This document shows positions 3,705 to 54,779 of a DNA stretch of 64,000 nt, in pieces. Each line of letters begins with the position of its first letter. Within the stretch, counting starts at the first letter, position 1. The notes under the pieces were generated by a model. The model saw only the letters and a program-made list of their open reading frames with translations, made no database searches and was not told the DNA's origin. Both the position numbers and the translations under genes were made by a program. The stretch is from Zopfochytrium polystomum (taxonomy: Eukaryota > Chytridiomycota > Chytridiomycetes > Chytridiales > Chytridiaceae): the NCBI GenBank assembly GCA_025765615.1, contig JAIVFJ010000291.1:1-64000 (forward strand). Reading direction: 5' to 3'.

Positions 3705-6700
3705 ATGTCCACAAACAGTTCTGGCTTTGTGCTCCTCAATGCCCAAAAGCACTTGGTGAAAGTCCAGTACCTTGACGATCCAGCTGTTCAGGTCCTTGAG
3801 CTTGATCATCCCACTTTGCAGAATTTGACCGAGAAGGTAGTGCGCCCACTCACGCAACATTCATTCTGACATCCATATCCACAGATCTACAAGAATGCAG
3901 ATGCTTTTCTCGGCCAAGACATTGAAGTTTATTTCAAGTCTGGCCCTGACCTGGAATGTGTCAGCCAAGCTCCCACTTATGTCCAGAACTTGATTGAGGG
4001 ATCATCTTTTCCCAACCTGCCCCGTTTTCAGATTCACCTCAGGAAGGGCAAAGGTGCTGCAGTTGCCAAGGCTCTTCCAAGTGTTCCACCCATTGCCTCT
4101 GCTTTGTCCAAAGTCTATGACTGCTTCCTTTCGTACCAGTAAGTGGCTTCACAGTGGTGTCACTGCATCTCCACAATTGACTTGGACATTTTCAGGTGGG
4201 ACAGCAAAGATACTGTGAAGAAGATTTTTGAAGACCTGAAAATGAAGCATGGATTAGATGTGTGGTTTGATGAGAACAATATGAGTGGGTCCATCAACCA
4301 GGCCATGGCTGAAGGGATTGATTCAAGCAAAGTGTTTGTCCCTGTGCTCACTCTTGCCTACCAGGTGAGCAGTCTGTTTGGATTTGTATTTCACTTCAAC
4401 TCTTACTCACTCTGGGACCAGAAATCTGACAACTGCCTGGTGGAGATAAGATATGCCAAGGATCGCAAGAAACCAAATGTCCCTGTGCGCCTGTTGCAGC
4501 AGGGAGAGGATGCTCAGGGAGAAGTCTTTGCAATCACTGCAGCGTGAGTTGCTTTTGCAATTTGGAATCCAAGAGGACTCTGCTGACATTTTCTCAGTTT
4601 GCTGTATGCTGATTTTGCTGGCAAAGTTCCTGGATCCCCTGGATGGGATGCTCAGATGGCCTTCCTTGTGAAAGAGATCAAGCTGCGTCAGAGTCAGAAG
4701 CCTGTCCCTGTGGCAGCTGTTGTTCAGACACCTGTTGATGAAGTGGAACTTTGGCTGAAGCCAGTAGATATTGCTGTTGATGCTGAGAGACACAAGAGTG
4801 CCTATGTGGATGGAACCAGGAAGTTTTATCTGGATAATGTGCACTCTTGGCTCCAGTCTGCCAATGTGGGCAATGTGCTGTGGCTGAATGGTGGAGCTGG
4901 CCTTGGAAAGTCTGTGATTGCGTGGCTTGTCAGCCAGCATCTGCCTGCCAAGTATGTGTTGGGGTCGATATTCTACTGCAGGCATGATGATGTGCAGAAG
5001 AGCAGCCCCCAGCAAGTTGTTGCCACCACCATCTGGAATCTTTGCAGTGTGCTTCCTTCCTTCAGGAAGTTTTGTGATGCTGCTTGTGCTGAAGATGCCA
5101 AGAATGGAGATTCCAGTATTCTCAAGGACCCTGAGGTTGCCTTCAAGCAGATTGTTGTTGAAGGATTGAAGCAATTGGATTCCAGCGACAAGCTGAAGAA
5201 TGTTCTGCTGGTTGTTGATGCGTTGGATGAATGTGGAGCTCCTGACAGCAATGAAAGGAAGAAACTCCTGGATCTCCTTGTGCAGGCCAAAAGGGAACTG
5301 CCTCCCTTTGTCAGAATATTCACCACTGGAAGGCCTGAGCAAGATGTTTTCCTCACCATGATGAAGATGGACTCAATGGTCCTTGTCCCAAGTGATGAAG
5401 CCAACAAGAATGACATGAACCTGTTTGTTGAAGCCACTCTGTCCAAGTCATTTCCTGGTGGTGTGCTGAGTCCAGATGATGTGAAGAGAGTGTCTGCTGA
5501 GATCTATGAGAGGTCTTCTGGCATTTTCCAGTTTGCTCGCATTGCCTGCGATGAGCTGGCCCAAGTTCCAGCAGACAAAGTTGTCAGCACCGCCAAGGGG
5601 TTTGGTGCTGGTATTGATGGAGTGTATGAGCAGTTTTTCAGATCCAGCAAGGTCAACACCAACAACTTTCGACTTGTGATGAAGGTTGTTCTTGCTGCAA
5701 AGGAACCCATACCCCAAGATGTCATTGCTGAGCTCCTGGGTGTTGCACCTCATGTAGTTGGCCAAGTCCTTGTTGAGGCAAGTGTTAATTCTAATTCAGT
5801 TTGATTTTATAACCAATATTAACAATATTCCAGATTCATCGTATTCTAGATGTCAGTGACCATGGCAAGGCCAAAGTGATGCACAAGAGTCTCTCAGATC
5901 ACCTTATTTCAAGCACAAGATGTTCAGACCGCCAGTTCTTCATTGATATTTTGGAAGCAAGAAATGAAATTGCTCAGTCCTGTTTGAGGATTATTCTGCA
6001 GCACTATCAATCTGTTGAAAACAAGTATGAAGTCCTGAATGGGACTGCTGGGTTCATCCCTGAGAATGCCACAGCCCAGTATGCCTTCAAGTTTTGGTTT
6101 GACCATCTGGATGCAGCTGGGCGTGATGTGGTTGCCAGTTGGGCTGAGTGGAAGGAGTTTGCTGATGTGGACAAGTTTGGGCCAGCAGCACTTTGTATGG
6201 GAATCATGTGGAAGTCGGAATGGCTTGTTCAAAGTGTTTTTGCTGCAGGACATGGCAAGATACTTGTCACAAGGGCCAAGCAACAAAGAGTCTTTTCCTC
6301 AAACCTGCTGTATGAGGCTGCAAGGAGAGGATTGACGTCAGCATGCAGATCTTTGATTGAGGAAGGAGGTGAAAATGTGGACTCCAGAGGCAATAGTTGG
6401 GGTGACAAGATGCAACATGGTGAAATGAACAGGACCCCTTTAATGGTTGCAGCAATGAACGGACATTCGCAAACCGTCCGTGCCCTTTTGGAGATGGGGG
6501 CTGACCACAACCTTGTGGATTCATCTGGAATGACAGCCTCCAAATATGGCTTCACATATACGATTGGAAAATGGGTGAACGAATTGCAAAAATCTGTAAG
6601 TTGTACACCTGGCTGATTGAATTCTCACAAAAAAAAAAAAGACAAACACAGATCCCAAATGGCATTTTTTTGAAAGCATTCATGATGACCAGCAGCTTCA

Positions 6701-8567
6701 TGAATGGTTTCTTGCAAATAGCAGCAGCCTTGGTGAAGTTGACTCGACTGGAAGGACACCCCTCCACATTGCATCTTGGAACGGCCAATTGGAAGTTGTG
6801 AAGTGGTTGGTGCAGCAGGGTGCCACTGTGGATGCTGAGGAAGAGGACAAGTTGACACCACTCCACCTTGCATCTAATCACGGCCATTTGGAAGTTGTGA
6901 AGTGGTTGGTGCAGCAGGGTGCCACTGTGGATGCTGAGAACAAGGACAAGTGGACACCACTCCACCTTGCATCTCAGAACGGCCATTTGGAAGTTGTGAA
7001 GTGGTTGGTGCAGCAGGGTGCCACTGTGGATGCTGAGGAAGAGGACAAGGCAACACCACTCTACATTGCATCCCTGAGCGGCCATTTGGAAGTTGTGAAG
7101 TGGTTGGTGCAACAGGGTGCCACTGTGGATGCTGAGGAAGAGGACAAGGCAACACCACTCTACATTGCATCTCAGAACGGCCATTTGGAAGTTGTGAAGT
7201 GGTTGGTGCAGCAGGGTGCAACTGTGGATGCTGAGACCAACAACAAGGCAACACCACTCCACATTGCATCTAATCACGGCCATTTGGAAGTTGTGAAGTG
7301 GTTGGTGCAGCAGGGTGCCACTGTGGATGCTGAGAATAAGGACAAGTGGACACCACTCCACATTGCATCTTATAGCGGCCACTTGGAAGTTGTGAAGTGG
7401 TTGGTGCAGCAGGGTGCCACTGTGGATGCTGAGAACAAGGACAAGTGGACACCACTCCACTTTGCATCTTATAGCGACCACTTGGAAGTTGTGAAGTGGT
7501 TGGTGCAGCAGGGTGCCACTGTGGATGCTGAGAACAGCAACAAGTCAACACCACTCCACTTTGCATCTCAGAACGACCATTTGGAAGTTGTGAAGTGGTT
7601 GGTGCAGCAGGGTGCCACTGTGGATGCTGAGGAAGAGGACAAGTGGACACCACTCCACTTTGCATCTCAGAACGGCCACTTGGAAGTTGTGAAGTGGTTG
7701 GTGCAGCAGGGTGCCACTGTGGATGCTGAGAACAGCAACAAGTCAACACCACTCCACTTTGCATCTCAGAACGACCATTTGGAAGTTGTGAAGTGGTTGG
7801 TGCAGCAGGGTGCCACTGTGGATGCTGAGGAAGAGGACAAGTGGACACCACTCCACCTTGCATCTGGGAACAGCCATTTGGAAGTTGTGAAGTGGTTGGT
7901 GCAGCAGGGTGCCACTGTGGATGCTGAGAACAAGGACAAGTGGACACCACTCCACCTTGCATCCCTGAGCGGCCATTTGGAAGTTGTGAAGTGGTTGGTG
8001 CAGCATGGTGCCACTGTGGATGCTGAGAACAGCAACAAGTCAACACCACTCCACCTTGCATCTCAGAACGACCATTTGGAAGTTGTGAAGTGGTTGGTGC
8101 AGCAGGGTGCCACTGTGGATGCTGAGAACAAGGACAAGTGGACACCACTCCACTTTGCATCTTATAGCGACCACTTGGAAGTTGTGAAGTGGTTGGTGCA
8201 GCAAGGTGCCACTGTGGATGCTGAGAACAAGGACAAGTGGACACCACTCCACATTGCATCTTATAGCGGCCATTTGGACGTTGTGAAGCTGTTGCTCTCT
8301 AAGAACGCAGATGCTTCTGCTGTTAACTCAGATGGTGAAAGACCTTTGGATGTTGCCAAAAGATGTGGGCATGCTGACATTGCTGAATTTCTTGGGGACC
8401 AATTTTCCCTGATGTCTTCTATTATTGTGCAGGATGCAGCGTTGAGTCCCATGGATGTGTTGTCTTCTACTGCAAATTCTGGTGGTGTTTCGTTGAATCG
8501 GCTGCATGGAAATCCAGGCAGTCGTCGTCGTGGACTTTTTGGGTTTTTTAGGAGGTCGCCGAAGTGA
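3705..8567 (+). CDS. NLR-like STAND receptor: N-domain - TIR - NACHT - ankyrin array (gene A)
   Basis: Seven exons: 3705-3836, 3885-4138, 4196-4364, 4422-4543, 4598-5777, 5834-6595, 6642-8567, giving 1514 aa with every junction in phase. Residues 1-107 form a small ubiquitin-like/PB1-like domain. A TIR domain starts at YDCFLSYQW (about 122) and contains SDNCLVE, whose Glu193 sits where TIR NADases carry the catalytic Glu. The NACHT has Walker A GGAGLGKS (324-331) and Walker B VLLVVDALDE (about 428-437), followed by the winged-helix region with HKSLSDHL. About 16 ankyrin repeats run from residue 907 to about 1455, then a basic tail ending RRRGLFGFFRRSPK. By family knowledge it is a ligand-triggered oligomerising signal receptor: ankyrins sense, NACHT switches, TIR signals, probably in the cytosol. 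Intron 5 uses a GC donor (GAG|GCAAGT). The 46-nt intron 6 ends in a poly-A tract before AG and is the least certain junction; the homologous locus at 49 kb supports the downstream frame. It is convergent with gene B. Confidence 0.9.
6741..8390 (+). repeat. Ankyrin-coding tandem array, 99-bp units
   Basis: Fifteen 33-codon units with the invariant core HLEVVKWLVQQGATVDAE (minor changes in units 1 and 13), then one divergent unit and a half-unit cap (KRCGHADIAEFL). Units are almost identical at DNA level, including silent sites. Differences sit in a few slots: ENKDK/EEEDK/ENSNK/ETNNK, then W/L/A/S before TPL, H/Y, L/I/F, and NH/QN/LS/YS/GN followed by G/D/S. These are the beta-turn and first-helix surface positions of ankyrin repeats. 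The multiple-of-three period also creates long meaningless antisense frames. Confidence 0.95.
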
Positions 8568-9960
8568 TCCTTTTCTTTAACTTGCTGTTTGTTTGCGATG
8601 GTTGTCTTCAAATGGATCGTTTTCTGTTGGCTTGTGAAAAATTTTGTGGTGCAATTTTGTAGTACTTCGAACTTTCTATTTTTTGAGGGTCTTTGAGTAC
8701 TGTTGGGAATTGAATTTTCTTTTTTTTTGCCTGTCCTTATATGTGGGTTTGTGTGTTTGTGCTTCTGGTTGGAGTGCTGGAATCTGGGAAAACCAGAATC
8801 TTGATCTGTCCATCAACTGCAGTGTATGACTGTTTGCGTCTTTCGTCAACCTCACACAGTGATGCACAATACTCGTTTTTTTTCTCTTCATGTCTTAACG
8901 TCGTTTTCCTTTGTGCAATTGCTCTGCCACCATCGTCTCTGGGTCTCATTTCGTGGGCCTGATTCCTTTCCCAACGAATTTTTTACTCCCCAACAAAGGG
9001 AAAAAATGCTTGCTTTGGCCGCTGCAGCACCACATATATGTAGTTGTGTTCTTGTTTGTAGGCCCAGAAACAAAACTTTCTTAAGGTGGGGGGTTCGGTC
9101 CAATGCTGCAAGAGCAAAAACAACATTGCTGCAGTGTTGTGCCAGACCGTGCAGCAGGGGGTGATTTGGGCTGCAGCATGCAAGTGTGCTGGGGTGGGGG
9201 GCACCAATAATCCGCAAAAGTTACTTGCGGCAGACAGGCATGAAAAAATGAAAACGAGTGTTGGCCTTTTGGTGCTGAGGCTAGCTTTATGCAGAGTTGA
9301 ATAGTGAAAGAAGAGGGGGAAAAAAAGAGAAAGTATGGTACACTATCTTTCCACCCAAAAATCTGCGCACCAATTGGTCAAGGATGGGTGACGGTATGTA
9401 TTGCAAGGTCAGCAGGGAGGAGGGGCACATCCATTGGTTGAAAGCAGGGATTCGTGAAGGGAGCTGGATTGAAAGTGGAGTGGCGGGAGGTGAGGAGTGC
9501 GAAAGGTGTGGGTGTGAGACTGTGCTCTCTAAATCCTCACCCTGGGCTATGGGTGGCAAATAGAGCAATGATCTAAATACCAATCCTGAAAAGCGAAAAA
9601 GGGCAAAAAGGAGATGTCTAGGGGTCACTAGACAGGACAATGTATTTGGAGTCTTAAGAAGCCCAAGAAACACAAAGAAACTCTCTTACTACACACAAAG
9701 AGAAGACTCTCATACTCAGACCAAAGGCAACTGTGAAAAAAGGTGGCACACTAGCAAAGAATGTGCAGGGTTCTCTGGTCCATGACACAGAGTGGGCCCA
9801 ATGGGAGGCAAAAGCCAAAGCCAAAGGGGACTGGGAAATCCGGTAACAATGCTGGAGGCGCAAGATGCAGCAAGCTCCAGGGAGCGGCACTAAGTGCAGC
9901 ACTCCAATCCAACTGAAGAAGACAAGAGAGTGGGGAGGAAAGTGGCCAGACCCCAGTCTG
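8568..9960. other. Intergenic / 3' region of gene A
   Basis: T-rich stretch after the gene A stop, with no coding family visible on either strand. It probably holds the 3' UTR of gene A. The sequence becomes purine-rich towards 9960, where a dispersed repeat begins. Confidence 0.5.
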
Positions 9961-10345
9961 TTGGAGCCACCACCATGAGCAAGGCTCCCTCTCAGTCAAA
10001 GACAAGCCCTAAGTTGGAGGGGGTTGGACACAGAGGGCAAACACAAGGAACAGTTAGTGTGCAGAGGTGTCTGTTGAATTAAATCAGAACTGTTTTCCAC
10101 TTAACAGAACCAGACACAACTTGTCTCACTCCAAGGAGAAGTTCCAACTCAATCCAAGGAGGGGGCACACAGGGGTGGGAGACAGTGGGACTCTTCTTAC
10201 TTCATCCTACTAGGACACAGACATCTGCTTCACCAAGCCAGAGGAATTCCCTATCTTAGAAGCAAGGAAGGTTAACACCCACTCCCTCACCCAAATGTGG
10301 CACCATGACATCACAGGCATTAATCTGAGAGAAAGAGGGTCTGAA
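9961..10345. repeat. Dispersed repeat, copy 1 (modules X and Y)
   Basis: Module X (about 9970-10165) is about 90% identical in direct orientation to 27380-27570; shared landmarks are GACAAGCCCTAAGTTGGAG, GTGCAGAGGTGTCTGTTGAA and CCAGACACAACTTGTCTCAC. Module Y (about 10205-10342) matches 27570-27710 in the opposite orientation (CTGGGTTCAGACCCTCTT ... ACCTTCCTTGCT on the minus strand here). The two modules therefore have different relative orientation in the two copies. No coding capacity; a non-autonomous transposable element family is the likely class. Confidence 0.75.
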
Positions 10346-10586
10346 CCCAGTGAAGACCAGGCCCACCAGAGGCCACAGGAGCCAACAACCAGGGAGGAGG
10401 GGGCATACCTGAGAGACCATTCCTGCAGCAGTACCTGACCAGACAACTCATTCATATCACCTTGAGAGAAATGGATTTGACTAGATGTACTGACAGGAAC
10501 CTAGAGGCATCACAGATTTACCCTCCATCCTTCCATCACCAAGTGGCTCCTACCCAGTCCAACCTAAGCAGCCTGCAGAAATAGTG

Positions 10587-10672
10587 AGGTGCACTGGGAC
10601 TTGAACCCAGCACACTGCCATGATGGCCAAGAGGACTTCAACCTCCTGTCACACACCAGAGGACTGCCACCC
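10587..10672 (-). other. tRNA-like cloverleaf in the 3' end of gene B
   Basis: Read on the minus strand: 5' acceptor GGGTGGCA; a D-arm with CCT...AGG and GG in the loop; an anticodon arm with stem GGAGG/CCTCT and 7-nt loop TTGAAGT (anticodon GAA); a long variable arm GCCA-TCA-TGGC; a perfect T-arm CTGGG-TTCAAGT-CCCAG; and 3' acceptor TGCACCT. The 5' acceptor has one extra G. A GAA (Phe) anticodon does not fit a long (Ser/Leu-type) variable arm, so this is probably a tRNA-derived relic or SINE head rather than a working tRNA. It begins about 7 nt after the stop of gene B, on the same strand. Confidence 0.45.
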
Positions 10673-10678
10673 CCAGCT

Positions 10679-13600
10679 CTACATCAAAACTCTTTTCATG
10701 TCTGTCATCAACGTTCCCAAGGTTTTCTTTCCAGAATCGTTCAAGAAAGTCTGTAGCTTCGTCATGGCAGGAATCACCAGACTGAGTGAGTCCAATAAGC
10801 TGCAGGCCTCAAGGAAATGATGTCCGTGATTTTCAAGAAAATTTTGCATCTCCACCAAGAGGCTGTTTGAGGTTGTCTGATACTCTGCTGAAAATGTCTT
10901 TGGGGAGAGTTTCCTTGAGTCATGAAAGCAGTGCTCCCAAAAATGCTTCACTGCATATCTGACATGGACAGGGAGCCCTTTTGCAACTTTTTCATTGAAA
11001 TCAGGGACCTCAGTGTGAAACTTGTCAAATGGTAGATCACACATGTTGAACTTTAGATTCTTGTTCAGTGCACTGATGCAGAGTCTTGCAAGTTGTTCAT
11101 GACCATCATTCAACTCAATCCTGACAGACAGCCCACATCGGGATGGGTCAGTCAGGTAATCCTTTACAGACTTGTGGAAAATCCTGATCTTCTTTGAGGA
11201 AGCATCAAGCACAAGGATGGGATCAATCATGCGGATGCATCTCTTCACATTTCCAGGGCTCGTCCCATCCAGCAGCGACACCATGGCTGCTGCAGTCAGT
11301 GGTTCATATGCAAGGACAATGATGGACAGCACAGTGTGAAGCAAGGGCTCCAATTGGCTCAAAATGGCCAAGTCCAAAATGCCAGCAAAAATCCTGTCAT
11401 ACATCTTATCAATGCGGCCATTCATCTTGTCTCCCTCTGGCAGAGCATTGATTTCATCAAGGGTAATGACCTCAGCATTGGAATCCCTCAGGTAGGTGCA
11501 AGCAGTCACAAGCCAGACAAAAATCCCAGATGACTTTGACACAAGAAGCTTGGATCCATCGTCCACCACAGATTGCTCAGCGTTCAACGTTATCAGAAAA
11601 TTCTGTGTGTACTCAATCTGATCCTTGATGTTGTCTTCAGCAGTTGGCTCAATTTCAGTGACAGGAATCATCTCAAAGGCCTTTGAAATGTCTACTTCAG
11701 GGCGTCCAGTTACCAGCAACTTCACATTTGAAGGAAGCAGCCTGTTCAGCTCCTGAAACAATGACAGAATATCACTCCTTTTGCCAACAGCACCACACTC
11801 GTCCAGGGCATCCACAACCAGCACAACTGGCACATCTAGCTGCTTGGCATCAACAACGCTCTGCAGCGGCTGAACAAGCAGCACCTTCATCATCTCAAAC
11901 ACAGGTCTGGACAAAATATCTGGATTGTCTTGCTTGATGTGAAGAAGAATTTCTCCATACCGAAAGCTGAACTTTGCAAGACTGAATACCAGGGTCAGAA
12001 CCAGGTTGCAAGCGCTGTTGCGACGTTCATCGTCATGCTTGCAAAAGAACATGCCACCAAGCATGCCAAAAGCCTCCAGCTCTCTGGAGACCATGGCAGC
12101 CATCACAGACTTGCCCACTCCAGCCACACCCTTCAACCACATCACCCTGTTGGTGCTGGCTGCTGAGGGTTTGTCTGGTGACAGAAACTGAAACACTCTA
12201 TTGAGGAGCCACTGTCTGGAGCCAGAAAGCACATTCTTCAGAAGGGCCTGCCTTTCATCATCCATGATGTCAGACAGGGGAGTCAGCCACATTTCCAATT
12301 CATTCAATCTGGGTCTGGAGAGTGAAATATCTGAAAATGCATTGGTAGTCTTCTTCTCAGCCTTCCTTCGACTGTACACGTTCCTTGCAGCAGTGACAAC
12401 TCTGTTGTACATCCAAAGTTGTGTGAGAAAGGTTCAAGAAACACAACAAAAACAAAAAAATGCAATTGCATTACTTGAGAACATCGCTGTCAGAATGGGC
12501 AAAGGGCCCATTCAGCTCCAGGACCATCTTGACAGTTTGAGATACAGTGTGGCGGCGAGGGCTCAAAGGATGAGCATGAAGTGAGTCAGGAAACTTGGAG
12601 TGATCAAATGTGCTGAACTTTTTCTCCAACAACTCCTTCCTCCCATCTTCGAGAGTGGCAGCCACCTGCCCCGAAAGAAGAACAGGCAGGATGTCGACTC
12701 CTCTCTCTTCCTTCATCTGAAGTGCAAGTTCCCACTAATGATCACATTTAGCAACCAGAAAATCAGATCAACAGGCTCACCTCCAACAAGCAATTGTCCA
12801 GCTTTTTGTCAGCCTCAAGCATCCGCTTCATGCTCAAATCAGAACACAGCAGAATAATAACTGAAGAGTGATACAAGCCTGACATGAAGTTGACATCCCA
12901 CTTCTGGCCAAAAGCTTGGCACTTTGCATCCCAAAAAGTCTGGAGACCGCTCCTTTTGGTCTCTTTGTTGAAATCATTCAGTGGCACTGTTCTTCCCAAA
13001 GCTTTCTCCATTTCATGGAAAAGGTCCTTCGCAAACACCGTTTCTGATGCCTGGCGGTGGCTGTTGGAGGGTCAGATATGATTGTCGGAACAAACATGCA
13101 GCCCAGACCTAATAATGAAAGGATGCTTTTGAACACTGGGCTCACACTCCCAATCTCTTGGAATCAACCCCATCCTCTTATCTGATGGAGAATTGGAAAC
13201 AACACAGGTTAGTCTCTGATGATCATTCCTAAACTTCACGACCCACCCTTGTCAGGCACCAGGCTCTCATCAAAGTTATCACCATTACCTGCAGGAGAAG
13301 TGGTTGTGCCAGCTCCAGATGCAGTGGGAGCAGTGTGGGTTGCTCCAGGAGAGTGAGCAGCTGGAACAGTGCTATTCCCACCACCAGCAGCAGCAGCAGT
13401 GGTTGTGCTTGCTGCAGGTGATGCAGTTGGAACAGTTTGGGTTGCTCCAGAAGGGTTCAAAACTGGCTCAGCAAGCACCTTAAAAATTTTAAGAAAGAAA
13501 TGAAAAAGCAGATGAGAAGTAAACTTACTTTCCACTTGAAGTTCTGAGAAAGAAGGCTTGCCAGGTCGTCTTTCACATCAAGGATCATTTTACCACCAGT

Positions 13601-13762
13601 TGCAGAGTCCACGTACACCAATTCAATAGGACCAGTAATATTCCAGCGTGAAGCCACAAGCTGGTGCAGATCGTCAAAGCCAGTGCTGGCAGGAACTTCA
13701 ATCTTCCTTCCAGTATTGCCAAGCTCAAAAACCACAGTCCAGGAATTCACGTGGCTCGCCAT
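10679..13762 (-). CDS. NLR-like STAND receptor: N-domain - TIR - NACHT, no repeats (gene B)
   Basis: Six exons on the minus strand: 13762-13529, 13478-13247, 13181-13109, 13060-12781, 12716-12475, 12401-10679; all phases agree, 927 aa. Residues 1-78 form a PB1/ubiquitin-like domain, followed by an Ala/Thr/Pro/Gly linker with repeated PGATxTxPTAS-like units. The TIR domain starts at HPFIISHRQASE (about 175), runs through WDVNFMSGLYHSSVIILL, and carries DNCLLE (Glu273 at the NADase position) and VDILPVLLSG. The NACHT has Walker A GVAGVGKS (445-452) and Walker B VVLVVDALDE (546-555), then IRIFHKSVKDYL as in fungal NLRs. It ends without ankyrin, TPR or WD repeats. It may act as a signalling partner of gene A, or it may have lost its repeats; both are inference. 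The 48-nt third intron is chosen because it joins the TIR strand in frame. Confidence 0.88.
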
Positions 13763-15190
13763 AATTCTTCAAAAGCACAATCAATCACAGATACGGTGAA
13801 ATGGAAATCACAGTTAGATTGGGAGGCAATAAGAGAAGAGAGAGATTTGGAAAACAGGGCATTGGGAGGGTGAGATTGTTTCAAGGAGAGTGTTTGCGTT
13901 AGCTTTAGCACCGGAACAGCTACTATTCAGAAGTTTCTTTGAAGCATGTTGAAATTGAATAAAGTTAGCAGCATGGACACTCTTGACAGAGTCTCCTTCC
14001 TGAAGCGGATGTAGCGCATTGCTGACGATCCTGACACAAACACTATTCATAATGTCAGAGGGGAACTAGCAAAGGCAACACTGCCCCAAAGGAGGGCTTG
14101 CAGTGACGGCGTGTCCGTTGCACCTCTTGTGGTTTGCTGCTTCATTAACGCCATGGTCCAGATCTGGTGTGAAGCACAAACGAAATGTGCTTGCTTAGGG
14201 AGGGGGGGGAAGGTGGCTGTCTCGTCACTAGCCCTGTATCGCTATCGCCATAGACGGTCTCGTGACACAAATGTCGCGATAATTGTCGGTATTGACCTAT
14301 CAATTTGAAACCTTACATGGGAGCCTGTCCCACAACATCGACGTCGTGAATGTCGTTCTGAGTGAAGTGGAGTGCGTGGTCAGCAGCATTTCCGATCATT
14401 ACGAACGGCAGGAGAAAGAACAGGTCCATAAACAACAGAGCACGTACAATGAAGCTGGCCGGCCAGCCGCCCCGAGGAGAAGGGGTTTGCAGCCGACAAT
14501 CCATGTCTTGGCCAGCCCGCTGGCATCGCGATTGGAAGCCCGTGCGGCGCATCGACTGCCTTACGCCGCCCGCCGTCGCCACATCGCTGAGGATCGAGAG
14601 AATCGATGATGGATCCATCCGCAGCCTTGGCGGAGCGGATCCGAGGAAAGCGCCTGCTTTGGGGGGGCGGAGGAGGAAGGCGATCGGGCGTGGGTCGATC
14701 GGCGCTCACCTCTTTGGTTCGTCCTCCGTCGTTTTCGTTTTTGCTTTGGGGTTTTTTATTTTTCACAGTCTGCCTGTCTCTCTGCCTCTCTGCGTATCTG
14801 TCCCTCTGGTTGCCTGTCTGTCTATCCCGTCCATCAATCTATCTCCCCGCCTCCTCCTTGCGATATTGGTTGCAACAAACATTATTGCATGACGGAGTAG
14901 TCTGACGGGTACCGGACACCGGATACCACCATGGCCACCCCTACGTATCCCTGGAGGACGGGGACAAACGAAAACAGGGGGCAGAGGGGGAAATAAAAAA
15001 AAAATAAAAAAGGGATTTAGAAACACAAGGGTCATACGCGGTAAGCATGGGTAACACAAGAGAGAGAAAGAGAGAGAAAGCTAGAGTCAGATAAACAGAC
15101 AGAACTAGCCACTGCGTCACGCCACGTACGACGACATCGTCCCCTGCGACTCGGTGTGCACCGTCCCGCGGTTATTATCGTACCGTCCAT
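13763..15190. other. Mostly non-coding; one weak small ORF
   Basis: A minus-strand frame of 101 codons (14313-14618) contains one hydrophobic segment (ALLFMDLFFLLPFVMIGNAA). It has no recognisable family and an unremarkable start, so I do not call it. C/T-rich microsatellite-like sequence lies at 14760-14850. Confidence 0.4.
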
Positions 15191-15199
15191 TGTGGCCCC

Positions 15200-16028
15200 C
15201 CACCTTCGCGCACGACGCTGCTCGTCCACCGCCCGACCGTGCCCCCCCCCGAATACTCTGTCGCGCTGCCCGCCGCCGCGACCACCTAGTCTCCCCAACT
15301 CCCCGCCCCTCCAGCATCGGAAGAAGAAAACGCCCCGACCGGCCCCAAACACGACATTGGGAACGCGCTCGCCTCTTGTGGTCGTGTTATCGTCAAACTG
15401 AGCGCGCACTTGCACAACGTCGCCAGGGTACAGGTGGACCTCGTCCGACATGGTCGGGATGTCGTGAACAAGACCGGACTTGGCGTCCGTCGCGCCCTTG
15501 CCCGCAAACACGCCCGCAGCCGCCGCCGACGCCATTTGCTGCTGCTGCTGCTGCCGGCGGCAGCCTCCTCGCACCACCACCGCCGCCGCCACCAAGAAGA
15601 CGTGGCGGCGGCCGCCACCGCCGACGCCGCCGACGGGAACGGGTTCCTCAACACCGGGCCCGCCAAATCCGCCGACGCGCTACCGGCGACGCGGAACCCC
15701 TGCTGTTGCTGCTGCTGCATCGACTGCATCAGCATCTGCTGCAGTTGCGTCTGCTTGAGGTACCCCGCGGCCGCGGCGTTGAACGCCTTTTGCTCCTGCT
15801 GCTGGCGGCGCGCGGCCGCCGCAGCGCTCGAGCGCCGGCGGAGGCAAATGACCAGGACAAAGATCAGCAGCAGCAAAATGACGGCGGCCGCGACCACGAC
15901 GCCGAGAAACACGGGGAGAGAGAGGCGCAGCTTTTTACTCATGTTATTGTCATTGCCGCCTCCGCCGTCCGGGGCCGGCCGTTCGTCGCCGCGCCCGTTC
16001 CGTTGTGGTGGTGGTGGTGGTCGCTGTG
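15200..16028 (-). CDS. Single-pass membrane protein with C-terminal SH3-like domain (model incomplete)
   Basis: The minus strand encodes MSKKLRLSLPVFLG, then a strong transmembrane helix (VVVAAAVILLLLIFVLVIC) followed by basic RRR, i.e. cytoplasmic C-terminus. An Ala/Gln-rich stretch (LKQTQLQQMLMQSMQQQ) follows. In another frame come HDIPTMSDEVHLYPGDVVQV and FDD, the N-terminal half of an SH3 domain (ALYDY-like, DE-L, GD, V). An intron or frameshift between about 15640 and 15535 is needed to join the two; GTGGCG...CAGCAG is one in-phase choice. Upstream, Thr-rich sequence near 16010-16080 and a hydrophobic AAIVAGAVVLA stretch near 16230 could be the ectodomain and signal peptide. The layout matches fungal membrane sensors and adaptors. 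Exact ends are not fixed. Confidence 0.6.
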
Positions 16029-16779
16029 CCGCCACCTGTTCCTGTCGTCACGGTGGTGGTCGTGGTGGTGCCGGATGGTGGTGCCGGACGTCAAGCCCGC
16101 TTCGATTCAGATCCTCCATCGACCCGGGGTCCGCGACGTTCAACCTCGCTAAAAAAAGTTGTCGACTGCACCACAATATCGTTCCTCCTCGCTTTGGCCG
16201 CGAATGGCGTCTTTGTCATCGCCGCCCGGTGACGCCAGCACCACCGCGCCTGCGACGATTGCCGCCGTCGCCGTCGGCAACCGGAACCTCCGCCAAGTAA
16301 AACGAGCTTGCCGCAAATATCGCCGCCGCTGCACGTCTGGACCCGCCCGCGGCGCGCTGAAGCTGGTCCTGCTGACGAAAAGCGGCGGCGACGACGGCGC
16401 GATTTCGTCGACGACCCTGATGAATTAAGAAAACTCAGTGACTTGATCATCCAGATCGTTTTGCCTCGCAAAAAGATGTGCGCCAGAATCGTCACTAATC
16501 AATCATAAGTATCCAAGTCTGAGTCTTTAGGGTGAAGGACTGCCAAGCGACGTCCAGGCCCAGGAAAGAAGTCCTCCCAACAAGATTCCTCATCGTCTTC
16601 CTGCTCTCAGCCCACCAGCTGTGCTGCTGGCCCAGTTGAGGGGGATACCCTTGGGGTGTGGCAGAGGATTTTTGAGTGACTGCCAGGGACAGACAATGTA
16701 CATCTGTCTCTGTACCTATGGGAGGTGGAGCAGTTGTCTACAAAGGAGGTGGGGAGGCGGGAAGTGTCTGTCCTGTTCC

Positions 16780-18890
16780 CAGCTCGAGTCAGGGGAATGT
16801 TGCCTGTCCGGAAGGGTGTTCGAAAGGTTGGAGCAGGGTTGGAAGCCAAGTAGTGAGGTCAGTCGCTGGTGCTGAGATGCCGAGAGTGGTTTTGTGAGAA
16901 TGTCTGCGATCCGGTTGCTGGTCAGTATGTAGCGTACAGTGATCTCTCCAGTGGCTATGCCTTTTCAGAGGAAATGAGCATGTATGTCGATGTGTTTTGT
17001 GCGAGCATGTGTGAGAGGGTTGAGCAGTAGTGCGATTGTAGATTGATTGTCCTCGAGGATTGGTAGTGGCCGCTGTGCGGGGAGTTGCAACTCTGATAAT
17101 ACGGCTAAGAGCCATTGTGCTTCTTGGAAGGCTTCAGAAAGTGAGTAGTATTCTGCCTCTGTGGAGGATAGCAATACTCGATGTTGTTTGCGTGAGACCC
17201 AAGAGACAGCAGCGCCCATGAGGAAGAAGACATATATCCAGTGCGCGATGTGCGGTCTCCAGGTTCGCCCCCATAGGATGCATCAGCGTATGCAGCTGGT
17301 TCAAGGGTGTTGTTTGTGAAGAGCCGTAGCAGCTTGTGGCTTTGCCTGTAGAATAATCTGTTGTCCCAGGTGCCTCAGAGGTAACAAAGCAGGTGGTGGA
17401 GTGCATTGCAATGGCACTGGTGTGGCTTCAGTTGGAACTGGGAGAGTACATTTGTTGCAAATGCGATATCTGATTGAGTTTGTGTTGTGAGGTATTGAAT
17501 TTTCATGAGTGTGGATCAATACCAGCTTGAGTTGCTGTCGCTGAGTTCAATTGACGTTTTGTCATGCATAAAGGTGATAGTCGTTGGAGTTGATGCAATG
17601 TCGAGGTCGTCCCACATTTTCTCTTCAGTGAGAATTTTTCTGCAACACCATCACCCTCCTTGGCATAAGGGACAGAAGGCTGAAAGACAATGGGAGGTTG
17701 ATGGTTGATACAGTAGGCCTCAAATTGCTGAGTGTTAAGACTGAGGTTGTCTGCCTGTACAAATAGTGTTCGACGAGTGGGGAAGAGTTGCTCTTCAAAA
17801 TCAACGCAATCAATGTGTTAACAAAGAAGTAGAAGCGAGCGGGACCGTTTATTTGAGAAGAAGAAGAAACAGAGGGCCCTCCTGTAGCAGGTTGAGGGTG
17901 AAATCCAGAGAAAGGAACAAGACTTGCTTGCGGTACAGCCACAGTTGCTGAGGCTGAAGCATGGTTTGGTTGAGCTGGTGTGAAGTGCTGCGCTTGGAGC
18001 ATGGCTTAGATGGCATTGGCTCGGTGCATGTGCAGGCAGTGCTCAGACTTGTGCGTGTGTGCGTTGGTGGCCAAGCTTGGAATCTCTGCACAGAACTCGC
18101 ACCCAGTGCCTTCAACTCTTCCAAGACCTCGATGGATTGAGGTAGCCTTTGGCTCCAGCCTATGGGTGACTCCTGGCTTGCGGTGGTCACAACAGTCTCT
18201 TTCCATGTGGTGAACGTATGCCTTGTGGTAACCACACCACTAGTGTGGCCTATCCCCACAACGAGGGGAGCAAGAGCAGTTGTGGTTGTCGTGGATTTTG
18301 CGACCCCGCTGTCATCGTTCCTGTAGTTGCTTCCTTGGCGATTGTTTCGTTCTGCTTGCTCAAGGTCATTGCAACCTCCTTGGATGTGGTCACTTCCGTC
18401 ATGGTTGTCACAGTGGTTGTTGCCCAGCTGACGCCAGTTGCAGTTGTTGCAGCGGTTCCTACAGTCTTCCTCTTCATCTGCCTCAAGGGCAGTCAAGACA
18501 GCAGTAAGCTCATCCATGATATTCTGTAGATTGTTGAAGCGGGGGTCATTGTTTTGAAGTGCTTCCACAAATGGTCCAAAATGACTATGAGCTGAGCCGT
18601 GTGCAAGGTCTGTGTGCAGTTTGCTCTGCAGTTTGCGTACAAACTCACCAAGTTGGTTTTGGCCATGACCTTGGATGAACAGTCGCTGAAGTGGCTCAAT
18701 CTCACGCACATAAGAATTCAGGTCTTGGTGACGCAAGGGGCTTTGAGTGTCTGTGCGTAGCTGCAGCCCTGACCATCTGTTTTCAAAATCATCAATCGAG
18801 CTGGATGGGCAGGCATTGTTGAATGTTTGGCGAATGGCAGCCACACAGTCTTGATAGAGGTGAATGTTGCAGCAGAGCTCAAACAAAGTG
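16780..18890 (-). mobile_element. Degenerate, internally deleted Ty1/Copia retrotransposon
   Basis: On the minus strand a Gag frame starts at 18886 and contains the UBN2/Copia-type core (LRHQDLNSYVREIEPLQRLF). A Cys/His-rich remnant follows in another frame near 18100 (CEFC...HTHKSEHC). After about 700 bp of broken sequence the order jumps to the end of Pol: RNase H (SRKQHRVLLSSTEAEYYSLS near 17190, ILEDNQSTIALL, KHIDIHAHFL, NRIADILTKPLS near 16880). Integrase and reverse transcriptase are missing. Several frameshifts are present, and I could not find LTRs. This is not the same family as the intact element at 53-59 kb. Confidence 0.82.
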
Positions 18891-37079: not shown

Positions 37080-40000
37080 TCAAGCGCACTCCGTGTACAA
37101 CGTGTCAATCGTCAAATCCAGACTATGACAGCTCAAAAACTCGTCCTCGACGCACGCGATGGTCTGTATGAGTCCGACCTGGAGGTCAAACTGCGGGACG
37201 GCGTCGTGCCAGGGGACCACGTTCATCGTAAACTGCTGGAGGTCCGAGAGGGACAGGCCGTAGCGGAGGGTCGAGTAGCCGAGGCCGGGAGCCGAGAAGG
37301 AGGTCGCAGGGATGGACTTGTGCGCCGCGACGATGTTGGCGATCGCGCCGCCGAGAGAGTGGCCGGTCATCAGGACAGTGCGGTTGGCGTCGAGGAGGCG
37401 GGTGACGTGCGCTTCGACTTCGTTCCAGTAGACGAGCGTGCTGTCGACGGGGCCAAAGGCCATGATGACGGACGCGAGGCGGTCAACGGACTCGGCAGGC
37501 CACGCGTTGACCTAGGATGGGTAACGGGGTTCGTATCAGTGAACCGGAGCTGCAAGCCTTTAAAACCTAAAAAAAACAAAACCCCTCTGAATCTGAATGA
37601 TACTTTACCAAAGTACCGAAGTACGTGCTCATTTGCAAAAGCGCCGACGTACTCCACAGGTACAAGTCTTGGAAGACGTCGTTCAGGTCGCTGGTGCCAC
37701 GCACGGCAACGACGCTAATGTCCTTTGCCGGAGTATCGCGCATCCCTTTGTTTGTCGCGTTGAACCGGTATTCGACCCACTGGACGCTGTCCTTTCGCCC
37801 AAGCGTGCTGTTGTAAACGTTCCAGTGCGCCAGGCTGCTGCGGTTATACACGTGGATCTGGTGGTCCGCGTTCTCGGGGCTGGCTTCGTACGCGCCGCGA
37901 GCAAAGGCGGACACGTCGAGGACGTTGAGCGGCGACGGCGCGTTCTGGCCGGTGAAGAGGTCCGAGGCGAGGACTTGGACGTTGCAGATGGACGGCTTGG
38001 GCTTGCGGTAGCCGGCGAGCGAGGCAAAGACCGAGTCGCTGTCTTGGACGGGGTTGCGCAGACGGTCCTTCCAGGCCAGGCGGCGTTGAGGGTTGTAGTT
38101 TGCCGGCACGCCGATTGCGGGCATCCTCGGCAAGCCGAACCCTACAGAGGTTGGCTGACTCCATTGCGTGGCGCTCAAGAGGGTCGTGTCGTTGCTGGAA
38201 GGAGCTGCGGGAATCGTGCTGTGCAGGATGCCAATGAACAGAGACATGTTCACGGCCAGAACCCACAGCACCACCACAACAATGAGCGTCAGCTTTGCGT
38301 TGGTCATTGCCCGCTTCTCGAGCCTCGCCTCGCGACCAAACTTGAGGTTTTTAAAGTTCTTCTGGTAGTTGGTCCAACGGCAGCGAGGGTGACGGAACGA
38401 CAGGAGCAGCACCGAGAGAAGTACGGCGACGGAGGAAGAAAAGCCAGGGTACCTCAAACGAGCATAAAGAGCGGACAGGACAATACCGGCCATGAGCCCG
38501 ACAATGAGGACCACGCGGGCCTTGGCATGACCGATACTGTGCAGGAATTCGTTCTCCCTCGTGCGGTGGCGAACGAGGGGTAGAATAAGAGCCAGATCGT
38601 GAGCAATGACGAAAAACAGGAAGAAGCCAATCCGGTGGACTCCGATTTCCAAAGGGCTAGCCGCGCGCTCAATGGAGCGGGTGTCGCGACGGCGCCATTC
38701 CAAGTCGTAGTACATGAGCGATCCGAATCCAATGATCCACATGGCGCAACGGACACCAAAGACGAACCATGCCGGCCACGGAAGAGCGCCGTTGTACAGT
38801 GCAAAGTCCTGTTCGTCGTCGTCGAGCCCGCCAGCGCTTTCAACCTGGAAAAAGGTTTTCGACTCAAATCGGAAGACGTACTTCTTGACCGGCTTCAGTG
38901 TGCACAACCAAAGTAGCCCCAGAGAAATGGCCGCAACCCAAATGACAGAGTGGTCGTCGCTGTAAGTCTGGAAAAGGACGCCGAAAATCAGGATGGCCGT
39001 GGCGCCTTTGATACCGCGAGAGACGGTGGTCTCCAACAGATCTGTGCCAGTGTCGAAGCCGGCAGACGCGTAGTAGGTCGCGCGAAGCTGGGCATCAGTG
39101 ACCTCCTTGCTGTCGTCCCACAGCTCGTCAATGACGCGTAGGGATCTTCGAACACGTGCAAGAATGTTGATCGTGAAAATGAAGATGGCGGACGACAGAA
39201 CGCCGCCAATTGCCAAGATCGAAATCACTCTCCAGAACGGGAAAACGACACAGATCAACAGGAGCGGAACGCCGACCACAATGAGTAGGAACGCAAAGTA
39301 GATCCAGTAGCCCCAAATATCCACTTTCTCCTCAATGCGCTCAATCTCGTCCTCGGTGAGTCCACTCCGGGGGTCACGAGTAGTGTCATGGTGGACAGGC
39401 TCAGCAACAGCGGGCTGTCCAGTCACCGTGGGTTCTGCCGCCGGCGCAATGGCCTCGGAGATTTCGGTGTGCGCCTCCTCAACGGCATCCGCAATGGCGC
39501 TCGCAATCAGGTTTCTTCTTTCCTCTTCCATCTGCTCGTTGGACATGCCCGGGAACCCGTACTTTGAGAGTTGGAGAGACTTTGCGAGTTCTTCAAGCCG
39601 AACGACAAGCACAAACAGGGCGTTGTCGACGAGGTTGACCGGGAAAATATTGGAATGGGCCTCTTTTCCGTAGTGCGCATTCCAAAAGTAGCGCATCAGA
39701 CGAGCGCCCGTCCGCAGAAGCGACATTGAAAACATGTAGACCAGCTCGACGTCTTTAACAGATGCAAAAGTGAGTCAGTATTCGGTAGTTGCAACACCTC
39801 TAGCGAGCATAACAGGCAACTCACGGAAAGCAAGACCGAGCAAGAGGGGCCAGATAAAGAGTGCCTCGGACGCATGGAATGCCGCGTACGCAATGTTGAT
39901 AGTCGCAGCAACGAGGACAGTAACAATAAGAACCATCCCGATGAAGATCCAGAGGCATGCCATAGCAGAAAGGCACTAATGTATGCGCAGAAGGATTTGG

Positions 40001-47163: not shown

Positions 47164-49220
47164 TCAAGCAATCAGTTTTGCAGCTTCTGAATGACCATCC
47201 TGTGTAGCCAATTGGTACGGTGTTGTCTTATCCTCATCGTCAGCACCAGCAAAAGCTCCCATTCCCAACAGGCACTTGACCACTTCAAAATGGCCAAATT
47301 GGGCTGCAGTGTGGAGTGGAGTAAACCTGCGAATGTTAACATTGGCCCCTTCCTCCAGCAACAACTTGACCACTTCAGAATGACCATAACGAGACGCAAT
47401 GTGGAGAGGTGTACTGCTTGTCAATCTTCTCTGCATCCACAGTGGCGCCCTGTTGGAGCAGCAACTTGTCCATCTCCAGATCACCATAACCAGATGCGAT
47501 GTGGAGCGGAGTTTCCATATCCTTGTTTTCAGCATTCACAGAGGCACCCTGGTCAACCAACGACTTGACCACTTCTGTGTGTCCATTCAAAGATGCAAAG
47601 TGGAGCGATGTCCACTTATCCTTGTCTTCAGCATTCGCAGTGGCACCATGCTCTAACAAAGACTTAATCACTTCCAATTGGCCGCATTGAGATGCATCGT
47701 GGAGTGGTGTTATCCAAATGACCAGTCTCAGACGCAACGTGAAGAGGTGTGACCTTGCTCACATCTTTGACATTAACAGAGATGCCCTGCTCCATGATGC
47801 AAAGTGCAGTGATGTCCAATTTGTAAACAGTCTACTCGGAGTGAGTGAGTGGAAGGAGTGAATGAAGTGGAGATGTGTGTTTGTGGGTGGTCCTTCTCCC
47901 CAACTTGGAGAGAAAAGAGAAAAAACTCTGTTATGAATTATTGATACATGATGATGATATACATGCTGTAATAGTTGCTAGGCAAGCATGACTGGCACAG
48001 GGTAAAAACCTCTCCTATATTATCTGCTTGAGCAGAGGAGGAGGAAAACTGTTGACACTGAGTTTCCATTCCACTTAATACTCAGAGTATTTGTCATCAG
48101 TGCAAGCCAGCGCCTAGATCTGCATTGGCAGTGGCTTGCTCTCCCATGGGCATTGTGAGAACGATAACCTACAGTCACCATAGGTTCGGGTCCGTCTTGT
48201 GCCTCTTGCTGCTAACCAGTCAGTTCCGCCTAACACAATTGGTCTTTGTTTCAGCTTTCTGGGAGGCTCAACAATTTAACAACCACTGGACAACCTCCAG
48301 ATAGCCACCTTGAGCTGCAGAGTGGAGTGGAGTCTGCTTCTCCCCATCCTCAGCATTCACAGTGGCACCCTGATCAATCAAGCTTTTGACCACAATTAAA
48401 TGGCCGTTTCGCCGTGCGAAGTGGAGTAGCGTCCACTGTTTATTGTCGCTGGCATTCGCAGTGGCACCCTTCGCAAGCAACCATTTGACTACTTCCAAAT
48501 GGCCATTCAGAGATGCAAGGTGGAGTGGTGTCACCTTATCCTCGTCCTCAGCATTCACATTAGCACCGTCTTCCAACAACCGGTGGACCACTTCCAAATG
48601 GCCTTTCAAAGATGCAAGATGGAGTGGCGTCCGCTCGCTTGTCTCCACATTGACAGAAGTACCCTGCTCCAACAAGCAGGAGACAACTTCCAAATGGCCA
48701 TTCCAAGATGCAAAGTGGAGTGGTGTCAACTTTTTCTTCTCTGGCGCATTCACAGTCGCGTCTTGCTTCAAACAGCTACTTCACCACTTCAGAATGGCCA
48801 TCAGAAGAGGCAAAGTGGAGTGGTGTCCGCTTGTCCCAGTTTTCAGCGTTCACAACGGCACCCCGCTCCAACAACCACTTCACCACTTCCAAGTGACCAT
48901 TGGGCGATGCAATGTGAAGTGGTGTCCTTCCAGAAGTATCCACAGCATCAACAGACATGCTGTTGGTTATGAACCATTCTCTGAGCCGACTTGTTTCATG
49001 CGATTGTGTGAAAAAGTTCCATTCAGAAGCTTTGAACGTCAACTGAGTCTGTCAGAATCATGAATTCAAGCAGAAGAAAAGTTTTTCCAATCCTGGATTG
49101 TCATAGAGCAACTGTAAGCTCCAGCCTCATATCCATCGATTCTAATCGATCAAACTGTGGTCTGCTCCCATTTCAAAGAGGATGTTCACAGGTTTCACAT
49201 GTTCTCCCAATGAAGCAACC
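47164..49220 (-). pseudogene. Decayed NLR-type ankyrin gene related to gene A
   Basis: Minus strand. About 49215-49090 reads RTLLMVASLGEHVKPVNILF-EMGADHSLID, then a stop and shift, matching gene A's TPLMVAAMNGHS...LLEMGADHNLVD. After a likely intron (acceptor TCTGACAG near 49055) comes SEWNFFTQSHETSRLREWF and DTSGRTPLHIAS, aligned to gene A's KWHFFESIHDDQQLHEWF and DSTGRTPLHIAS. At least eleven ankyrin units follow in four reading frames: breaks near 48775 (TAG plus one extra base), 48280-47838 (insertion), 47740 and 47440. The array ends KTTPYQLATQDGHSEAAKLIA at 47164. Units here are well diverged, unlike those of gene A. The NACHT and TIR parts were not found upstream. Confidence 0.85.
47838..48281. 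mobile_element. Probable inserted element inside the ankyrin pseudogene
   Basis: Ankyrin coding stops at EVVQWLL (48282) and resumes at KWTSLHFAS (about 47835), with about 440 bp of unrelated sequence between. A pol III B-box-like GGTTCGGGTCC occurs at 48184-48194. CAATTT is present at both edges and may be a short target duplication. No open frame and no clear terminal repeats, so class is unknown; a SINE is possible. Confidence 0.4.
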
Positions 49221-53417: not shown

Positions 53418-54758
53418 ATGAGCGTCAAACTAGTCCACCAGGCCCTCAATAACCCCATCTACTTTGACACATGGTACGAAGACGTACTTGGCTATCTCGC
53501 TGGCAAGGATGCACTTGCTACTATTAGCCTTCGAGCAGCACGACGTGCCGGCGCCGCCGTCGGCACAGCCGCCAGAGCTGGAACTGATGCTGACGCTGCT
53601 GCTGCTACTGGAGCTGCTACTGGAGCTGCTGCTGGAGCCGGCCCTGCTGGTGCCGGTGCAGGATTCGTCAACTGGACTGCTGCAGCACCCCCTGACGTGG
53701 AGCGATCAGATGTCATGCGTATCCTCCCAGTACATGTACCCAATCATCCACAGTATGTCGGCTACTGGACCTTCAGTGACGACGGAACTGCCTTTCCTGG
53801 AACCTATGCGCAAAACAAGCTGGCTATGATGCACATTCGGAATCATGTTGGCGAAAACCTCAAGCAAAAGATTAGCGGCATCTACTTTGTCTTTGAGGCC
53901 CTTGCCGAACTCAAGCGCAAAGTTGGCCGCGTCGACCCTGCACAGGTTATGAACCTTATTGATGAGTTCAAGAAACTCCGCATTGGAGAGAAAGAAAGAA
54001 TCGTGGACTTCCAGCAGAAATTTGAGACGCACTATGCATCCCTACAGCGTGCACGGGAACTCACTCCAATCGACATGCGCGACCAGATTGACATAACCCT
54101 AAGTTTTCGTTCTGCTGTCCATGTACTAAACCAAAGTTTCAAGAACAACAAATACTGGTTTCCCCAAGTCAACCACTATATGAGCAAGATTGATGACGGC
54201 ACCATCACAGACATCACTGGTCTGTTCGATTACCTGAAGATTATGGAGGCTCGCAACCGCAATCCCTGAAGACTTTGTGGAGCCACCTGCCGACCCAGTG
54301 AACGAGGCAGCCCTACTCAGCGGTCCCCAAGGCCGACGGAAGTGATGGCCACTCCCGACGTGCAGACAGGTCAGAGCGGCGTCATCCTCGCTTTGACTCT
54401 CGTGAGAAGCAACGCAGCAACCGTCGGGAGAGGCCTCATAAGGAACGACCTGACCGAGGTGGTCGCCAGAACCGGGAGCAGTCTGAGCGTCGCCGCAGCC
54501 AGAGAGAGAGGGAACAGCAACAACAACCCACCTGCAGCATCGGCAACTGTTGACCAACAGCAACGAGATGCTTCAGTAGTTGACAGTGTTGTCGTCTGTC
54601 ACCAGTGTGGCCTCAAGAACCACTATGCCAGAGACTGCCTTGCAAAGAAAGCAGATGCTCCAGTTGCCCTTGTTGCAGCCCTGGACGCCTCACAGTCTCT
54701 CAGCGAGTATGAGACTGAGTCTGACTACAGTGATTCAGGGGAGTCAAATTTTCAGTAG
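53418..54758 (+). pseudogene. Copia gag (capsid and zinc knuckle), frame broken three times
   Basis: The frame opens MSVKLVHQALNNPIYFDTW, with an Ala/Gly-rich insert at residues 40-90, then the UBN2-like capsid core (FEALAELKRKVGRVDPAQVM, LRIGEKERIVDFQQKFETHY). It meets a stop at 54267-54269. The protein clearly continues one base later (EDFVEPPADPVNEAALLSGP), shifts again near 54340 into an Arg-rich RNA-binding stretch (HSRRADRSERRHPRFDSREK), and a third time near 54520. It then returns to the first frame for the knuckle CHQCGLKNHYARDCL (CX2CX4HX4C) and ends with TAG at 54756-54758. Each break is one extra base, so three add up to a codon. Confidence 0.85.
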
Positions 54759-54779
54759 GCCTGAGGCCTCCACCTCGGG
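54746..54779 (+). promoter_or_regulatory. -1 programmed ribosomal frameshift signal, gag to pol
   Basis: Slippery heptamer A-AAT-TTT (54746-54752) lies in the gag frame, two codons before the gag stop (54756-54758). After a 7-nt spacer (CAGTAGG), a stem CCTGAGG/CCTCGGG (54760-54766 with 54773-54779, one G-U pair) closes a 6-nt loop. Slipping back one base enters exactly the frame of protease and integrase, which is open from about 54744. The arrangement matches the established X-XXY-YYZ plus stem-loop rule. Confidence 0.72.

Follow-up and report, generated by a model that had tools for sequence, protein, structure and literature searches.

We analysed a window of 64,000 nucleotides of the chytrid Zopfochytrium polystomum (assembly GCA_025765615.1, contig JAIVFJ010000291.1, here C291, positions 1 to 64,000), in which two genes, A and B, converge tail to tail 2.1 kb apart and each encode a TIR and a NACHT domain. 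We conclude that gene A is a complete intracellular NOD-like receptor (NLR) and that gene B, judged by its sequence, is a young copy of a PB1-TIR-NACHT-WD40 receptor of a separate B lineage. Probably B lost its sensor at a dispersed repeat, and the adjacency of A and B is a by-product of a rearrangement or an assembly join at that repeat. The original prediction had described two intact convergent genes that recall a sensor-helper pair. The two genes stand where they had been placed, as open spliced models, and both frames are open, but B is short of its natural extent and stops before the WD40 sensor that its relatives carry.

The evidence for the loss lies at the end of gene B. We searched window positions 8600-17600 against the genome (80.16 Mb in 761 contigs; all genome listings used here hold the best candidates only and are lower bounds). 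A 1172-bp repeat that lies between the two genes was found in at least 22 other places at 97-98% identity, with matches that span window positions 9508-9513 to 10684. This repeat provides the last codon of B (Met) and its stop. On the other side of the breakpoint (Table 1), a further match of the B family on contig C137, in two pieces, starts at 10686. The relatives P0029 to P0033 align to the last residues of B and then proceed into WD40 repeats. One copy, C128:25942-29600, is 99.15% identical to B from 10685 to the fetched end, over 3659 bases and without a gap, and its frame continues through WD40 repeats to 1159 amino acids; similarity between the two loci extends at 98% to about window position 16812. 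Since the matches stop and start at 10684/10685, the end of B results from a join at the repeat, made either by rearrangement or in assembly. B lacks a sensor because its sequence passes into the dispersed repeat at this point, not because it has specialised. The longest frame of the repeat is 113 amino acids and no inverted self-match was found in it. A simple insertion of the repeat was considered and rejected, because no target-site duplication was seen around it and no WD40 region lies on its far side; downstream of B there was no convincing WD40 remnant (best E 0.12).

The state of B itself counts against our main reading, since its frame is open and the 23 codons that differ from the C128 copy (8 synonymous and 15 nonsynonymous) show no sign of decay. 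Together with the retained TIR and NACHT motifs and the high identity to the C128 copy, the open frame would also be consistent with B working alone as a truncated TIR-NACHT protein, either as an adaptor or as a dominant-negative partner of its WD40-bearing relatives; truncated NLRs exist in plants. We consider this unlikely, since the end of B is set by the boundary of the repeat and the 15 nonsynonymous differences fit relaxed constraint equally well. Somewhat more weight, though still a minor share, goes to the proposal that the join from A through the repeat to B is an artefact of assembly and that a single locus may be represented twice, by one haplotype on C291 and the other on C128. The many near-identical copies of the repeat and the lack of a visible target-site duplication speak for it. 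So does a non-NLR gene at window positions 37567-39735, which is about 100% identical to C128:65763-67934; this identity makes the two contigs resemble haplotypes left uncollapsed, or the products of a recent large duplication, and counts made across the genome may be inflated. However, contigs of this size suggest long reads, which argues against a misjoin.

The sensor-helper proposal, in which A senses and the sensor-free B executes, draws on the fact that both genes are open and carry TIR and NACHT domains and that only A has repeats. We found no B-type gene in the fetched flank of any of 20 A-type loci (15 with at least 4 kb downstream, and all with only 0.3-1.4 kb upstream). Two points count against an accidental neighbourhood, the first of them also for the proposal. 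One of these loci, on contig C428, has a repeat-free B-type PB1-TIR-NACHT gene directly upstream on the same strand, and the upstream flank of the other 19 is just 0.3-1.4 kb. The C428 gene is, however, only 31-36% identical to B, and the C428 pair differs from the window pair in orientation. Close spacing of NACHT genes was not above chance: among 150 listed NACHT matches (a list that does not hold the C428 B-type gene) no two except those of the window lie less than 11 kb apart, and random placement, with contig ends ignored, predicts about 1.9 pairs within 6.9 kb against the one seen. In addition, the B copy on C128 keeps its WD40 array, and there was no A-type match on that contig among the matches listed. 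According to the available part of PMC12258605, plant sensor-helper pairs are often arranged head to head, often with a shared promoter, and in Sordariales such pairs are rare. A and B are tail to tail. We therefore rejected the sensor-helper pair, which we hold to be very improbable, on the adjacency and breakpoint evidence, and kept C428 as one counter-example. Within this genome C428 is one further neighbour pair, which brings the A-type genes known to have a B-type neighbour to two. By the refuting condition that the original prediction set itself, the pairing largely falls for want of conserved adjacency. We judge the adjacency of A and B to be accidental and not that of a co-evolved pair. 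The annotated protein P0001 (C428:16500-25000) looks like two genes annotated as one, in which the beginning of an A-type gene comes after a repeat-free B-type gene; its three longest pieces on C428 are 96-99% identical to the contig.

Table 1. Features of the two receptor genes and of the sequence between them (window positions).
Feature	Position	Strand	Basis or remark
Gene A, PB1-like/TIR/NACHT/ankyrin NLR	3705..8567	+	predicted model, seven exons, 1514 aa
Gene A exons (stop included)	3705-3836, 3885-4138, 4196-4364, 4422-4543, 4598-5777, 5834-6595, 6642-8567	+	
Gene A N-terminal PB1-like domain, about residues 1-103	3705..4061	+	family-level PB1 matches
Gene A TIR, residues 122-236	4116..4628	+	TIR_2 profile; Foldseek on P0001 fragment
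Gene A conserved Glu of NCLxE motif, residue 193 (E193)	4443-4445	+	
Gene A NACHT (NPHP3_N), Walker A GGAGLGKS, Walker B LLVVDALDE	4836..5333	+	Pfam, genome match, motif location
Gene A intron 5, GC donor (GCAAGT...CAG), GC-AG type	5778..5833	+	sequence and frame
Ankyrin repeats, 16 of 99 bp, 90% matches	6753..8336	+	repeat analysis
Dispersed 1172-bp repeat with tRNA-Phe(GAA)-like sequence on minus strand	9513..10684		genome search
Breakpoint	10684..10685		22 copies of the repeat stop at 10684; 16 matches of the B family start at 10685-10687
Gene B, PB1-like/TIR/NACHT without repeats	10679..13762	-	predicted model, six exons, 933 aa
Gene B exons	13762-13529, 13478-13247, 13181-13109, 13060-12781, 12734-12475, 12401-10679	-	
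Gene B PB1-like domain, exon 1, residues 1-78	13529..13762	-	identity to C47/C143 stretches
Gene B TIR, about residues 173-318	12600..13131	-	TIR_2; identity to P0001 TIR
Gene B conserved Glu, residue 273 (E273)	12783-12781	-	
Gene B NACHT, Walker A GVAGVGKS, Walker B LVVDALDE	11624..12223	-	Pfam, genome match, motif location

Gene A combines a NACHT domain with Walker A and B motifs and a C-terminal repeat sensor, as NLR/STAND receptors do; in place of the NB-ARC and leucine-rich repeats (LRR) of plant-type TIR-NLRs (TNLs) it has NPHP3_N/NACHT and ankyrin repeats. The spliced model is open throughout, with an acceptor at 6642 that was picked to preserve the reading frame. Gene B also has a NACHT domain with both Walker motifs, followed by a winged-helix-like region, and has no C-terminal repeat sensor, as its sequence stops ahead of the WD40 region of its relatives. 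Its spliced model is likewise open throughout, with a corrected acceptor, revealed by alignment to relatives, that restores six TIR residues with respect to a 927-aa model. The NACHT call was borne out by NPHP3_N matches over cut-off in both genes (E 4e-26 in A and 3.8e-25 in B); the NACHT profile PF05729 was over cut-off in B (28.1 bits) and under it in A (23.3 bits against a cut-off of 26.7). The ankyrin sensor is confined to A, as had been predicted, with 16 repeats in A and none in B.

A TIR domain was likewise recovered in each gene. The TIR_2 profile scored 64.7 bits in A (E 1.5e-17) and 29.1 bits in B against a cut-off of 28, so that B lies just over it with the 933-aa model; with the 927-aa model B scored 16.9 bits. 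The B domain is 35.5% identical to the TIR of P0001 (E 1e-25). A profile of nine A-type N-termini matched the TIRs of Cat1, Roq1, L6, RPS4 and RPP1 and a bacterial TIR protein, and the Glu of the NCLxE motif is invariant across the nine. In both A and B this Glu aligns with the Glu of plant TIRs, which we take to be the catalytic residue in plant and animal TIRs. The fold was checked on a fragment of P0001 that is 86% identical to A over 345 residues, and it is thus the fold of a homologue of A. The TIR core of this model had a predicted local distance difference test score (pLDDT) of about 80. A Foldseek search with it returned 40 chains at E 0.001 or better, all from TIR-bearing entries, with SARM1 at the top and AbTir and RPP1 also among them.

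The repeats of A are nearly identical and differ mainly at ligand-facing positions. Among repeats 1-15, nonsynonymous differences were found at positions 1, 6, 9, 10, 11, 30, 31 and 32, with traces of nonsynonymous change at 5, 12 and 22 and none at other positions. Positions 14, 17, 18, 21 and 25, which we take to be on the convex side, are invariant. Five ligand-facing positions (1, 9, 10, 31 and 32) had been fixed beforehand from designed ankyrin proteins; we assume that they map to positions 5, 13, 14, 2 and 3 of the designed repeat. The randomised contact residues of designed ankyrins, in the available part of PMC3602593, agree with this mapping. Only 1 in 20,000 random sets of five positions reached the summed variation of the ligand-facing five. 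The ratio of nonsynonymous to synonymous differences per site (pN/pS) in A was 1.20 at these positions vs 0.68 at the others. We extended this to 18 arrays of at least six repeats from 21 loci, A included, with the last repeat of each array excluded, and found that pN/pS was higher at the five positions than elsewhere in 15 of them. Amino-acid diversification at the binding face of the array is therefore clear. Positive selection on the array is suggested only: pN/pS at the ligand-facing positions exceeds 1 in just four of the 18 arrays, A among these, a pattern that lends positive selection no family-wide support. Gene A fits an HNWD-like pattern of near-identical repeats that vary at a few ligand-facing sites. 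Elsewhere in the window (47167-49051, minus strand) a further ankyrin array is degenerate and has breaks in its frame, and it opens with sequence similar to the beginning of the ankyrin exon of A; no NACHT was seen alongside it.

The shared N-terminal PB1 or ubiquitin-like domain of the original prediction holds in part. Pfam gave no PB1 match in gene A or gene B themselves, which weighs against the assignment, and a profile comparison of the two N-domains was uninformative (4% probability, no usable similarity), so that it lends no direct support to their being one domain. When the N-termini of A, its paralogue P0001 and nine relatives were aligned, three of these 11 matched PB1, with a best E of 9.6e-9, and A was not one of the three. 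Stretches on C47 and C143 that overlap PB1 matches above cut-off share 71% and 65% identity, respectively, with the N-terminus of B. For 18 of the 35 PB1 matches listed across the genome, a listed NACHT follows downstream in the same orientation. In a low-confidence model of a homologue of A the N-domain was poorly modelled as beta-beta-alpha-beta. The single-sequence model of the B domain, a weak one at pLDDT 60, was beta-beta-alpha-beta-beta-alpha and gave no fold match. The N-domains thus appear to be PB1 domains at the level of the family.

Both genes belong to large families. The NPHP3_N model matched at least 150 places in the genome, and a TIR lies upstream in 111 of the 150 listed NACHT loci (73 by the B-type query and 39 by TIR_2, with one found by both), leaving 39 in which neither query found one. 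The assembly contains near-identical pairs of regions, so this count may include some loci twice. The first 360 residues of B gave 190 genome matches and the first 798 residues of A gave 95. The N-domain, TIR and NACHT were found in every one of the 20 A-type loci fetched, and the middle part and the ankyrin array in 19. Compared with A, the NACHT is 88-96% identical at 15 of these loci, 81% at three and 68% at two. At 39 of the 85 listed TIR_2 places a NACHT follows closely in the same orientation. The other 46, which include the highest-scoring matches (e.g. on C241, C162, C250 and C52), have no listed NACHT within 3 kb downstream and probably represent separate TIR gene families.

In a tree of 32 NACHT domains, in which long branches were flagged (P0001 and P0016 among them), A pairs with an ankyrin receptor of Entophlyctis (support 100/100) within a clade of nine chytrid proteins that mostly carry WD40 repeats (86/96). 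B falls in a clade of eight sequences, receptors of Zopfochytrium and Cladochytrium most of which have WD40 repeats (99/98). That A and B are recent duplicates of each other was rejected: their NACHT domains are 28% identical and lie in separate clades, and because of this they are not tandem duplicates either. By this tree the TIR-bearing NACHT loci form two old chytrid lineages. Database searches with either gene gave annotated Zopfochytrium polystomum proteins as the best matches.

Two further stretches of the window were noted by eye. Positions 1-1154 have frames that look tryptophan-synthase-like and recur at 85-87% identity on C18 and C19, where parts of the A block accompany them; this stretch may have been copied along with the receptors. 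The frames at 53418-58971 resemble a Ty1/copia-type retroelement.

The arrangement of gene A suggests how it may act, with the ankyrin array as sensor, the NACHT domain as an ATP-driven oligomerisation switch and the TIR as effector. Once the array bound a non-self or altered-self ligand, the NACHT domain would be released and A could oligomerise. The ATP-bound oligomers would gather the TIRs, which could then cleave NAD+ or produce a NAD-derived signal, and the outcome of this signalling would be defence or cell death. The role of the PB1-like domain is probably to supply contacts within the oligomer or to recruit a partner. We infer the ligand, the NADase activity, the cell death and the role of PB1 from the families involved.

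On a wider scale the data may point to TIR-NLR immunity of plant-like extent in a basal fungus. This would comprise two old chytrid lineages that together hold more than 100 PB1-TIR-NACHT receptors. Their sensors, ankyrin or WD40, would be exchangeable and homogenised between repeats yet diversified at the ligand-facing positions, and a polymerising PB1 module would stand before NAD-cleaving TIRs; we offer this picture tentatively, as one with a little less than an even chance of being right. That 111 of the 150 listed NACHT loci have an upstream TIR suggests that fungi already had TIR-based NLR immunity early on; HET and other domains may later have largely taken its place in Dikarya. The chytrid repertoire offers a testable system for recognition by a zoosporic fungus. 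Dropping the sensor-helper claim avoids reading a repeat-driven truncation as an evolved receptor pair.

TIR domains are rare in described fungal NLRs, as the original prediction had it and in agreement with the available part of PMC10197012, yet TIRs in NLRs of Chytridiomycota are mentioned in PMC9815663. Those receptors are probably of the same kind as A and B; the available part of that paper gives no chytrid genes, numbers or repeats, and the word PB1 is absent from its main text. Dyrka et al. 2014 found no NLRs in chytrids, according to the available part of PMC4986451. Our searches of the open-licence literature brought up neither an account of PB1-TIR-NACHT proteins nor one of a chytrid TIR-NLR repertoire this large; on such repertoires they yielded only PMC9815663, PMC4986451 and PMC12258605. 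TIRs in chytrid NLRs are thus already in print, and the PB1-TIR-NACHT architecture and the size of the repertoire appear undescribed in that literature.

NACHT proteins of other chytrids (Entophlyctis, Chytriomyces, Siphonaria, Obelidium, Nowakowskiella, Quaeritorhiza and Cladochytrium) share TIR and NACHT with A and B, and several have a PB1-like N-terminus, though some of their gene models begin inside the TIR. P0002 to P0013 are 30-49% identical to A, and P0034 is 32% identical to B. They differ in that many have WD40 repeats in place of ankyrin; by their Pfam lists P0002 has ankyrin, and P0004 and P0005 have neither. The protein P0016 of Chytriomyces hyalinus has B-type TIRs at both ends, around NACHT and WD40, and its Pfam list includes PF07647, which we take to be SAM.

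The HNWD receptors of Podospora anserina, HET-D and HET-E, are fungal NACHT receptors whose high-identity repeats are homogenised and hold hypervariable sites, in the available part of PMC12222747. They have HET instead of TIR and WD40 instead of ankyrin, and PB1 is not mentioned in that part of the paper. The chytrid receptors differ from the plant TNLs Roq1, RPP1, L6 and RPS4 in having NACHT (NPHP3_N) and not NB-ARC, ankyrin or WD40 and not LRR, and a PB1-like domain ahead of the TIR. They share with these TNLs an N-terminal TIR with the conserved Glu, a nucleotide-binding switch and a repeat sensor.

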